A stretch of DNA of 64,000 nucleotides from Halorhabdus salina. GTDB lineage: Archaea > Halobacteriota > Halobacteria > Halobacteriales > Haloarculaceae. Shown piece by piece: positions 13,912 through 29,047 of the stretch. Location: assembly GCF_013839425.1 (NCBI RefSeq), contig NZ_JACDNP010000001.1:310001-374000 (forward strand). Direction: 5' to 3'. A program made the position numbers and the translations under genes. The notes under the pieces are model-generated. The model worked only from the letters and a program-made list of their open reading frames with translations. It did no database searches and was not told the DNA's origin. Each line of letters opens with the position of its first letter. Positions within the stretch are counted from its first letter, which is position 1.

Positions 13912-14071
13912 TATCGAACGATAATTCAGCGGAACTTAAGAGCATATCGGAGCGCGGAACGACTCGCCACTGGTCAATTGACCTCGCGCGATCGTCAAGG
14001 GGATAGGAGACGACACTCGCGACCGACGAAAGCATGGGTTTTTGCCGCTCGGCCGTCGACCCCCTGACGGT

Positions 14072-25089: not shown

Positions 25090-25527
25090 CTATCGCTCTT
25101 CTGAGTCCAGCACGCGAATCTGATCGCCGCGAACAGTCACCGGAATCGGGACCGTCGCTTCGTAGAGTTCGACGGTGACCTGATCCTTGCCTTCGTCGAT
25201 CCGCTGGACCTGGGCCTTCTCTCCCTTGAACGGGCCGGCGACGAGTTCGACGATGTCGCTCTCGGCGATCCCTTCGACGTCCGGCTTCGGCGAGAGGAAG
25301 TGTTCGACCTCCTTGATCGAAGACTTCCCCTGCACGACGCCGTTGGCGTGTGGGATTTCGTCGAGGATCCGGTCGAACACCGAGGCGTCCTCGGCCTCAA
25401 CCATGACGTAGGAAGTCAACGAGTCCGGAGCGAGGGCGGCATGAACCGCTTCTTCCTCGCGGTTGATGATCATATCCGCGACGGTGCGTTCCTGGCTAGC
25501 GGTGGTCTTGACGGCGTAGATGCCCAT
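25090..25527 (-). CDS. spt5: Transcription elongation factor Spt5 (NusG family)
   Basis: A 145-residue archaeal Spt5: NGN domain (~1-85, MGIYAVKTTASQERTVADMI) that binds the RNA polymerase clamp, then a KOW domain (~95-135, IVELVAGPFKGEKAQVQRID). It increases processivity and, with ribosomal protein S10, can couple transcription to translation. The ATG overlaps the secE stop as TGATG, so both are translated from one message. The open frame extends far upstream over secE in another frame and was trimmed to this start. secE-spt5 is the conserved archaeal pairing. Confidence 0.95.
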   Translation of the reverse strand: MGIYAVKTTASQERTVADMIINREEEAVHAALAPDSLTSYVMVEAEDASVFDRILDEIPHANGVVQGKSSIKEVEHFLSPKPDVEGIAESDIVELVAGPFKGEKAQVQRIDEGKDQVTVELYEATVPIPVTVRGDQIRVLDSEER

Positions 25528-25700
25528 CAGGCACCACCCGGGAGGACCGTCATGACGACGAAGATGACGAATCCGAGCAGCCCGACCAGCAGGATACCCG
25601 CGCCAGCGATCTTCGCGACCTGGCTGAATTCCTGCCAGGAGGGGGTACTCGCGAGCTTGAGCACCCGCACGTATGAGGTAAGATCGTACGGTACGTCCAT
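25527..25700 (-). CDS. secE: Protein translocase SecE (Sec61 gamma)
   Basis: A 57-residue single-span translocon subunit. Amphipathic N-terminal helix MDVPYDLTSYVRVLKLAS, then the conserved PSWQEFSQVAKI and one transmembrane helix (GAGILLVGLLGFVIFVVMTV). It clamps SecY in the membrane. The ATG at 25700 was chosen over a TTG at 25715, which adds MQRYC with no support. Its stop overlaps the spt5 start. Confidence 0.92.
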   Translation of the reverse strand: MDVPYDLTSYVRVLKLASTPSWQEFSQVAKIAGAGILLVGLLGFVIFVVMTVLPGGA

Positions 25701-25834
25701 GCAGTAGCGTTGCAACTCGGGGCTTTTCTATGTATTGATGCCTCTCGACAGCGAACACACACCGATATCGCGCGATCACTGACCGAAGCCGAACGATCCG
25801 GTCAGGAGGCAGCCGAACTCTCTCCGGTAGCCGC

Positions 25835-27565
25835 TCAGCTCTGGGTGCCGTCTCGACCGGCGTTGTCCGACGCTCGGCGATCGGCTACCGGCGTGAATTC
25901 CAGGCGCGCACCACCGTCTGAGCTTTCGGTCGCGGCCGCCTCGAATCCGTGTGCCCGGGCGATCTCTTCGACGATCGCCAATCCGAACCCGGTCCCGTCG
26001 TCACTCGTCGTGTAGCCGTGGTCGAAGATCGTCGCCCGCTCGTCCGCCGGGATCCCTGGGCCGTCATCAGCAACGTAGAACCCGCCACTGTCGATCGGTC
26101 CGACAGTGATCGTGATGGCACCCTCCGTTCCGGACCGACGCTCAGCCCCGGCAGTACCGTGTTCGATGCTGTTTCGAAAACAGTTCTCGAAGAGTCGGAC
26201 CAACCGATCTGGATCACCATCGATGGTCAACGGATCGGCGATGGCGAGCGTCGCCGGTTCGCTTTCGAATGCCTCCCACGCCTGTCTGGCGACAGTCTCC
26301 AGAGAGACAGGTTCGGGGTCGGCCAGTTCCCGGCCCTCGTGAGCCATCGAGAGGAGGTCCTCGACGAGTTCGTCCATCCGCTCCAACGCGTCTGCCGCCC
26401 CGGTGATGTGCTCACTGTCGAACTCGACAGCGGCAGCTTCGATGGAGCCACTCGCCACCTGCAGTGGATTCCGAAGATCGTGTGAGATCGTGTGGACCAA
26501 CCGCTCGAGGCGTTCGTTCTGGCGTCTGAGTTCCCGCTCGTTTTCGACCTGTGTCGTCACGTCGTGAAATGCCAGCACAGCCCCATTGTAGGTGCCGTCG
26601 GCGAGTGGTAGCAGTCGGACGTGGATATTGCAGATGCGTGGATCGCCGTCGATGGGATCGATCTGCACCGCCTCACTGACGTGGCGTTCGTATACGTGCT
26701 CGGCCTGATCATCGCCCCCATCGTCGCTCTGTAGCGTGGCTTCACCGTCCTCCGCTGCGTTGCCGTCACGCACGTCGCTGGGCTGGTGAGTTGTCTCGTC
26801 TCGCTCCCGATCCCCGCGGTCAGCCATGAATGTCCTGACAGCAGTGTCGAACTGCTCGGCAAAGTTTCCCAACAGTGGGTCACCCTGGGTCTGGTAGTCG
26901 ATCAACGGACGATCGAGAATCCGTCCCTCGGAGCCAACGAGATTGCGACGGGCGGGTTCGTTGGCCCAGGTCACCCGGCCCTCCGCATCGACCGCAAGCA
27001 ACCAAACCGGAACCCGGTCGACGACTGCTTCGAGTTCCGAGAGTGTCTCTTCGAGTGCCTTGAGTTCGGAGATATCGCGCGATAGACCGAAGGTCCCCAC
27101 GATATCGCCGTTCTCGTCGTATCGTGGCAGTTTGGTCACCCGGTACCAGGTCACGCCGTCCGGCGTGGCGAGGCGTTCTTCTTTGCCGACGATCAACTCG
27201 CCAGTCTGCATGATCCGCTGTTCTTCCTGGTAGCGGTCTCTGGCCTCCGCATCCGGCATATAGTCGAAGTCAGACTTCCCTCGCACGTCCGACCGTGACT
27301 CGTCGACTTCCCGGGCTTTCGACTCACTGATCCGAATGAAGCGGCTCTCCTCGTCCTTGAAGTAGACCGTATCGCCCGTATCCAGATGGAGACCGCTCAA
27401 GAACTGCTCGAACAGTCGCGCATCACGTCTATCCGCAGCCGAGTGGACCGCCCGCCGGAGCTGATTCGCAATCGCCGCCGGGACAGCGCCCACAGTCGCA
27501 GTCGCCCCTCGATCGAGGGCGGTCGTGACGGTCGATGCGTGGTCGTCCGCAGTCACGTAAATCAT
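25835..27565 (-). CDS. PAS-PAS sensor histidine kinase with split N-terminal pseudo-receiver
   Basis: A 576-residue soluble kinase. Residues 1-~40 (MIYVTADDHASTVTTALDRG) look like the C-terminal half of a receiver domain; its N-terminal half is encoded by the overlapping upstream frame. PAS 1 follows (~48-170, ending FGLSRDISELKALEE), PAS 2 (~178-335, with an acidic insert of ~60 residues), HisKA with phosphoacceptor His in LVHTISHDLRNPL (~356-368), and a HATPase domain with N-box FRNSIEHG, G1 DDGPGIP and G2 GTGFGLAI. No transmembrane helix is seen. It lies between ftsZ1 and secE-spt5, on the same strand. The ATG at 27565 overlaps the upstream stop as ATGA. Confidence 0.88.
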   Translation of the reverse strand: MIYVTADDHASTVTTALDRGATATVGAVPAAIANQLRRAVHSAADRRDARLFEQFLSGLHLDTGDTVYFKDEESRFIRISESKAREVDESRSDVRGKSDFDYMPDAEARDRYQEEQRIMQTGELIVGKEERLATPDGVTWYRVTKLPRYDENGDIVGTFGLSRDISELKALEETLSELEAVVDRVPVWLLAVDAEGRVTWANEPARRNLVGSEGRILDRPLIDYQTQGDPLLGNFAEQFDTAVRTFMADRGDRERDETTHQPSDVRDGNAAEDGEATLQSDDGGDDQAEHVYERHVSEAVQIDPIDGDPRICNIHVRLLPLADGTYNGAVLAFHDVTTQVENERELRRQNERLERLVHTISHDLRNPLQVASGSIEAAAVEFDSEHITGAADALERMDELVEDLLSMAHEGRELADPEPVSLETVARQAWEAFESEPATLAIADPLTIDGDPDRLVRLFENCFRNSIEHGTAGAERRSGTEGAITITVGPIDSGGFYVADDGPGIPADERATIFDHGYTTSDDGTGFGLAIVEEIARAHGFEAAATESSDGGARLEFTPVADRRASDNAGRDGTQS

Positions 27566-27789
27566 GGAACGTCGAGCGTCGAAAGGCGCTCAACCGCCCC
27601 GAGAGCCTCCTCAAGCGTCCCAGACACGGCCACGACGTCGATCCCCGCGTCGCGGGCGGACGACATCGCCGCCTCCACCGTCGAACTGTACCGAAGATCG
27701 ATGTCGTGGTCGGACAGTGTCTGCTCGGATGAGACCGGGGAGTCGGGCGTTACCCACAGTGCCGTTACCCGCCCCCGATTGTGCATCAT
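27562..27789 (-). CDS. N-terminal half of a pseudo-receiver domain, coupled or frameshifted to the kinase
   Basis: A 75-residue frame beginning MMHNRGRVTALWVTPDSPVS with a receiver-like pattern: beta-strand VTALWV, helix EAAMSSARDAG, strand IDVVAVS, helix TLEEALGAVERLS and STLDVP. It stops exactly where a receiver would continue with its fourth strand; that continuation (MIYVTADD...) opens the next frame, overlapping by ATGA. Insertion of one base would join the two into a complete domain. The usual phosphoacceptor Asp after strand 3 is not evident (DVVAVSG), so this is probably a pseudo-receiver. Either a recent frameshift, a sequencing error, or a genuinely two-piece protein. Confidence 0.6.
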   Translation of the reverse strand: MMHNRGRVTALWVTPDSPVSSEQTLSDHDIDLRYSSTVEAAMSSARDAGIDVVAVSGTLEEALGAVERLSTLDVP

Positions 27790-27886
27790 CGATGAGAGGA
27801 TTTCTGAGGAGTGAACAAAACAGTTTTCGTTTGATAAGGGATCCCGAAGCGACCGAACAGCCACTCGATCGTCGTTCAGACAGTGA

Positions 27887-29047
27887 CTATTCCACGTAGT
27901 CGATGTCGTCGCCCATGCGCTGGGCGGCCTTCTCGCGTTCGGCCTCGCTTTTGCCGTAGATCTGTGGACTCTCGACACCCGTGACGACGATCATGGTCTC
28001 CATCTCACCCTCGTAGTCGTGGTTGACGGACGCGCCCCAGATGATCCGCGCATCGGGGTCGATCCGATCGTAGATCTCCTCGACGACGCCCTCGGCCTCC
28101 TCGATGGACATGTCCGGCCCACCGACGACGTTGACCAGCGCGGAGTTCGCGCCGTCGAACTCGACGTCGAGCAGCGGCGAGCGCAACGCCGAACGGATCG
28201 AATCCTGGGCCTTGTTCTCTGAATCGGACTCGCCGAGGCCGATCATCGCGACGCCACCGTTCTCCATGATCGTGCGAACGTCGGCGAAGTCGACGTTGAC
28301 CAGGCCGGGCTTAGTGATCAGTTCGGTCATGCCTTTGACCGAACGCATCAGGACGCGGTCACAGATCTTGAAGGCGTCCTGCAACGGCATCGACGGAGCA
28401 TAATCGAGCAGGCGATCGTTCGGCACGACGATGACCGTGTCCGAAACGGATCGGAGGCGTTCCAGGCCGGCGTCCGCGTTGGCCCGCCGTCGCTCGCCTT
28501 CAGCCGTAAAGGGAATCGTGACGATCGAGATCGTGAGCGCGCCGGCCTCCTGGGCAGCCTGGGCGATGACGGGCGCCGCACCCGTGCCAGTCCCGCCGCC
28601 CAGACCAGCCGTGACGAACACCATGTCAGAGCCGTCGATCGACTGCTGGATGTCCTCCATGTTCTCTTGGGCGGCTTCCTCGCCAATCTTGGGCACCGAC
28701 CCGGCACCGCGGCCGCCGGTACGCTTCTTGCCGATGAGGATTTTCGTGTCGGCCTTGACCTCATCGGCGAGGTGCTGGGCGTCGGTGTTTGCCGCGACGA
28801 GTTTCGCCCCGTGGATGCCTTCTTCCATCATCCGCGTGACCGTGTTGCCGCCAGCACCGCCCGCACCGACGACGGTAATCTTCGTCTCTAAGTCCTCGAC
28901 GACGTCGGACAGTTCTTCGTCAGTCATCTGCCCCGAGGTCGAAACGTCCTCTGTCGTGGTGTCACTTGTTCCCGGCGGGTTGTCTGCGGGGGGGTCCTCG
29001 CGGTCCTCCTCGGCTTCTTCCATAGCGTCGTCGATAATGGAGTCCAT
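27887..29047 (-). CDS. ftsZ1: Cell division protein FtsZ1
   Basis: A 386-residue tubulin-family GTPase forming part of the archaeal division ring. An acidic disordered N-terminal tail (~1-50) precedes the Rossmann start [14 protein letters not shown]. The tubulin signature is [12 protein letters not shown] (~149-160); the T7-loop region is [15 protein letters not shown] (catalytic Asp). The C-terminal domain ends in a short acidic tail. The long N-terminal tail and sequence are like haloarchaeal FtsZ1, the paralogue that recruits other divisome parts. An AT-rich element at 29072-29084 lies about 30 nt before the ATG. Confidence 0.95.

Follow-up and report, generated by a model that had tools for sequence, protein, structure and literature searches.

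A receiver domain divided by a one-base frameshift between two overlapping frames in front of a histidine kinase of Halorhabdus salina, most probably through damage to the gene or a sequencing error

The window analyzed here, i.e., the whole 64,000-nucleotide stretch of H. salina DNA from whose first letter all positions are counted, contains a histidine kinase frame and a short frame that overlaps its start, both lying between ftsZ and secE-nusG. The features of this region are as follows:

25090 to 25715, minus strand: secE-nusG, the downstream flank, with matches in same-genus loci
25835 to 27565, minus strand: 576-aa kinase frame, running from receiver strand 4 to helix 5 and then through PAS_4, PAS, HisKA and HATPase_c (from Pfam and motifs)
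27562 to 27565, minus strand: ATGA overlap of the small-frame stop and the kinase-frame start (from the sequence)
27562 to 27789, minus strand: 75-aa frame ending in TGA, with the first three strands and first three helices of a degenerate receiver (from translation and profile match)
27566 to 27589, minus strand: 24-base interval that contains the frame change, with the best register between GTTCC and ATG
27887 to 29047, minus strand: ftsZ, the upstream flank, with 93-98% identity to the ftsZ genes of six species of the genus

Sequence and translation confirmed both frames at these positions, and with them the description in a first-pass annotation of this DNA, where a small frame ending ...STLDVP-stop meets a kinase beginning MIYVTADD at an ATGA junction. 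The 75-codon frame is coding from 27789 to 27565 and closes with TGA at 27564-27562 (C-terminal end ...VERLSTLDVP), and the ATG of the kinase frame occupies 27565-27563, with the junction reading GTT CCA TGA in the small frame and ATG ATT TAC GTG in the kinase frame. As it stands in the assembly, the sequence bearing the frameshift is GTTCCATGATT. Going upstream from its ATG, the kinase frame meets a TGA (27590-27592) after only eight codons, and these open codons (APFDARRS) bear no resemblance to the family, which brackets the frame change to 27566-27589. The homology of the small frame runs on to DVP, and the loss of one base between GTTCC and ATG is sufficient to explain the break, in line with the earlier proposal that one extra base would restore continuity. 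Both frames have coding composition and are free of other lesions. Phase variation, which had also been offered as an explanation, finds no footing here, in that the junction has neither a repeat nor a long homopolymer, with runs of at most 3-4 bases.

The kinase frame is complete in its catalytic parts. Pfam identifies PAS_4 at residues 65-169 (7.8e-23), PAS at 177-246, HisKA at 353-408 (2.4e-9) and HATPase_c at 450-559 (2.7e-18), i.e., two PAS domains ahead of HisKA, and the H, N, G1 and G2 motifs that accompany HisKA and HATPase are all intact (HDLRNP, at 362; ENCFRNSIEHG; DDGPGIP; GTGFGLAI). An N-terminal receiver is not contained in this polypeptide, being complete only across both frames, and we therefore claim membership of the REC-(PAS)n-HisKA-HATPase class for the ancestral gene only.

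The first-pass annotation had read the two pieces as a receiver-like domain cut before strand 4, and profile comparisons bear out the joined domain, with the qualification that the receiver is a degenerate one. Against a profile built from the N-termini of 25 relatives, the joined pieces scored 54.9 bits in a single alignment that is gapless at the junction, compared with 18.4 bits for the 75-aa piece and 35.4 bits for the kinase side taken separately. The 18.4 bits of the 75-aa piece compare with 12.4 for the best of about 2000 shuffles, and the first 60 residues of the kinase ORF scored 19.1 bits against 10.8 for their best shuffle. With a second profile, made from 17 relatives for which only the kinase piece had served as query, the joined score (45.4) again exceeded that of the kinase side (33.5); the 75-aa piece was weaker here (12.3 bits, a score exceeded by 1 of about 1985 shuffles), and is by itself a weak match. 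Pfam called no receiver in either piece, and Pfam and NCBIfam together gave no useful domain call for the 75-aa piece. Judged by its sequence relatives, one of which (L151) passes the Pfam Response_reg cut-off, the domain is a degenerate receiver. Fold prediction, which was run on a fused relative (L098), gave beta1-alpha1 to beta5-alpha5 for the homologous domain (pLDDT 81), with CheY-like receivers as the best PDB matches; strand 4 of this prediction is located at the residues equivalent to the cut site, and the cut comes just before strand 4. The phospho-acceptor Asp expected at the end of strand 3 is absent (IDVVAVSG), as it is in close relatives (e.g., VDLLVVLGA), and the domain thus does not qualify as a phosphorylatable receiver (Response_reg).

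Relatives were collected by searching the first 175 residues of the kinase frame against 146 family genomes, and both pieces end to end against 392 genomes of the order. The closest are 31-36% identical over the N-terminal part and fused. The check suggested earlier for a fused ORF in related genomes gave a positive answer: in 27 haloarchaeal loci from the 392 order genomes, the match extends from one side of the junction to the other within one uninterrupted frame, free of stops. The position of the PAS motif FxKD/YxKD points the same way: the 32 relatives in which it was located have it 105 or more residues from the start (139-171 in the 25 profile relatives), compared with 68 in the kinase frame and 143 once the two pieces are joined. 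We also looked for separate conserved small proteins, which would mark the small ORF as independent, but a freestanding homologue of the 75-aa piece turned up neither in 59 nor in 392 genomes searched; used alone as a genome query, the piece gave weak matches only, and the plausible ones lie inside kinase-sized frames. The same split was found in no relative. In a related kinase of another family (L136, G230:C1), receiver strand 1 seems to be in a different frame, upstream of 2115 on the minus strand, with VAVTLVSPDAP in one frame and the remainder in another; this domain may thus have been frameshifted there independently. No orthologue was found in the genomes searched, where the best matches reach at most about 55% identity and cover the kinase core only; a scan of named genomes gave only distant kinases and no strain counterpart, and plasmid records gave distant haloarchaeal PAS kinases only. 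For this reason the fused ancestor in this lineage is one that we infer from relatives about 33% identical. On this evidence it is probable that both frames are the remains of one haloarchaeal REC-PAS-PAS-HisKA-HATPase kinase gene that encoded about 651 residues and that a net one-base change has split.

A frameshift-controlled sensor, in which programmed ribosomal frameshifting joins both frames into one protein, had been raised as well, and a -1 shift at CCA TGA would indeed yield a continuous domain. However, inspection of the junction showed no slippery heptamer around GTT CCA TGA, and the relatives, which are in a single frame, need no shift, making this reading extremely improbable.

The meaning of the ATGA overlap was assessed by simulating one-base deletions through the receiver regions of relatives. 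Such deletions ended in ATGA in 16% of cases and in GTGA in 31% (47% together), and the start codon was always in the original frame. The overlap is therefore an expected by-product of a deletion and no evidence of a selected two-piece design, which, together with the lack of the split in any relative, counts against a conserved form of the two-piece arrangement considered earlier. A two-piece sensor could also be functional in this organism alone, with the half receiver as a separate subunit made in fixed ratio through termination-reinitiation and reassembling on the kinase, and two observations are in its favor, namely that both frames have coding composition without other lesions, and that an overlap of four bases is the most frequent arrangement in Haloferax volcanii, with short overlaps being enriched among genes for complex subunits (PMC10666635). 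Yet no relative has the split, random one-base deletions give the overlap at the frequencies stated above, the 45 bases ahead of the kinase ATG contain no Shine-Dalgarno-like motif, and a half domain of 75 aa is unlikely to fold alone. We consider such a functional two-piece sensor improbable, and it is without positive support. That a one-base deletion produced a working two-piece sensor, so that a single mutation would have caused gene fission inside a domain, we hold to be quite improbable.

A net one-base change could lie in the organism or in the assembly, and the sequence around the locus bears on this choice. The source is a draft assembly of 25 contigs, with no orthologue for comparison, and a single one-base lesion in an otherwise intact gene is what a sequencing or assembly error would leave if the gene were intact in the organism and one base were missing from the assembly. 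Against an error, a comparison of about 40 window genes (some 13,900 codons) with those of the closest species (G002) revealed no frameshift inside a real gene, and the junction contains no long homopolymer. Apparent frameshifts near 13,995-14,021 and 36,720 in this comparison were rejected as lying outside real genes. The same genome contains a second receiver-PAS-kinase gene (L157, 781-2183; G000:C12:293280-294682) with a frameshift close to the PAS/HisKA boundary and, in addition, an in-frame TAG; its counterpart in G002 is 81% identical and forms one open frame of 499 aa. A second frameshifted kinase in one assembly is compatible with sequencing error, whereas the in-frame TAG is more like natural decay, and the state of L157 fits a loss of kinase genes in this lineage. 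Because the neighboring genes are clean and L157 is broken here and intact in the closest species, we favor real decay, and infer a real mutation at the locus under study; sequencing error is the unlikely, though by no means negligible, alternative. The ftsZ / secE-nusG gap itself (window 25716-27886; L085, L086, L087) varies within Halorhabdus, with the kinase present only here, a substrate-binding protein and a transducer in three genomes (G001, G002, G004) and nothing in three others (G003, G005, G006). Synteny was therefore rejected as an aid to the history of the split, since sister species carry other genes or nothing between ftsZ and secE-nusG.

Taken as a split fused gene, the locus suggests the following course. 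In the simplest case, one base would have been lost just before receiver strand 4, leaving the kinase, dimerisation and PAS modules intact. Since the stop created by the frameshift overlaps an ATG in the original frame, ribosomes ending the 75-aa piece could restart, and would then make a kinase with the second receiver half only. Given that the receiver has no phospho-acceptor Asp, what was lost would probably be a regulatory or dimerising module and not phosphotransfer, and the likely outcome would be a kinase whose regulation is altered or constitutive, or a kinase that is being lost. The protein is thus of a known kind with a one-base frameshift, by real mutation or by sequencing error; what we see here is most likely an ordinary sensor kinase gene that was damaged or misread in sequencing, rather than a novel sensor in two parts. 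By itself this case has little significance, being one more frameshifted kinase. About every second one-base deletion in these GC-rich genomes runs into a stop that overlaps an ATG or GTG of the original frame. What remains after a frameshift can therefore be two coupled frames and not a null gene, and broken genes may be concealed among annotated ATGA pairs.

Two known systems are relevant for comparison. Termination-reinitiation has been demonstrated in Haloferax volcanii, where 9 of 9 tested close or overlapping pairs were strictly coupled (PMC6728339), and the locus described here shares with such pairs (PMC6728339, PMC10666635) a four-base ATGA overlap on one strand of a haloarchaeal genome, one of the short same-strand overlaps (ATGA, GTGA or TGATG) typical of these pairs. 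By analogy, the overlap may keep the kinase half translated. The known pairs are whole genes, often for subunits, whereas here each frame encodes half of a single domain, and the overlap has no Shine-Dalgarno motif nearby. The second system is the archaeal REC-PAS-HisK class, a known class of which up to 40% might not get phosphorylated (PMC5847659). The locus differs from it in that the receiver is divided over two frames by one base and has no close orthologue. Once the frames are joined, the domain order is identical to REC-(PAS)n-HisKA-HATPase, the receiver is without the phospho-acceptor Asp, and the product of 651 aa is similar in length to close fused relatives of about 595-665 aa.
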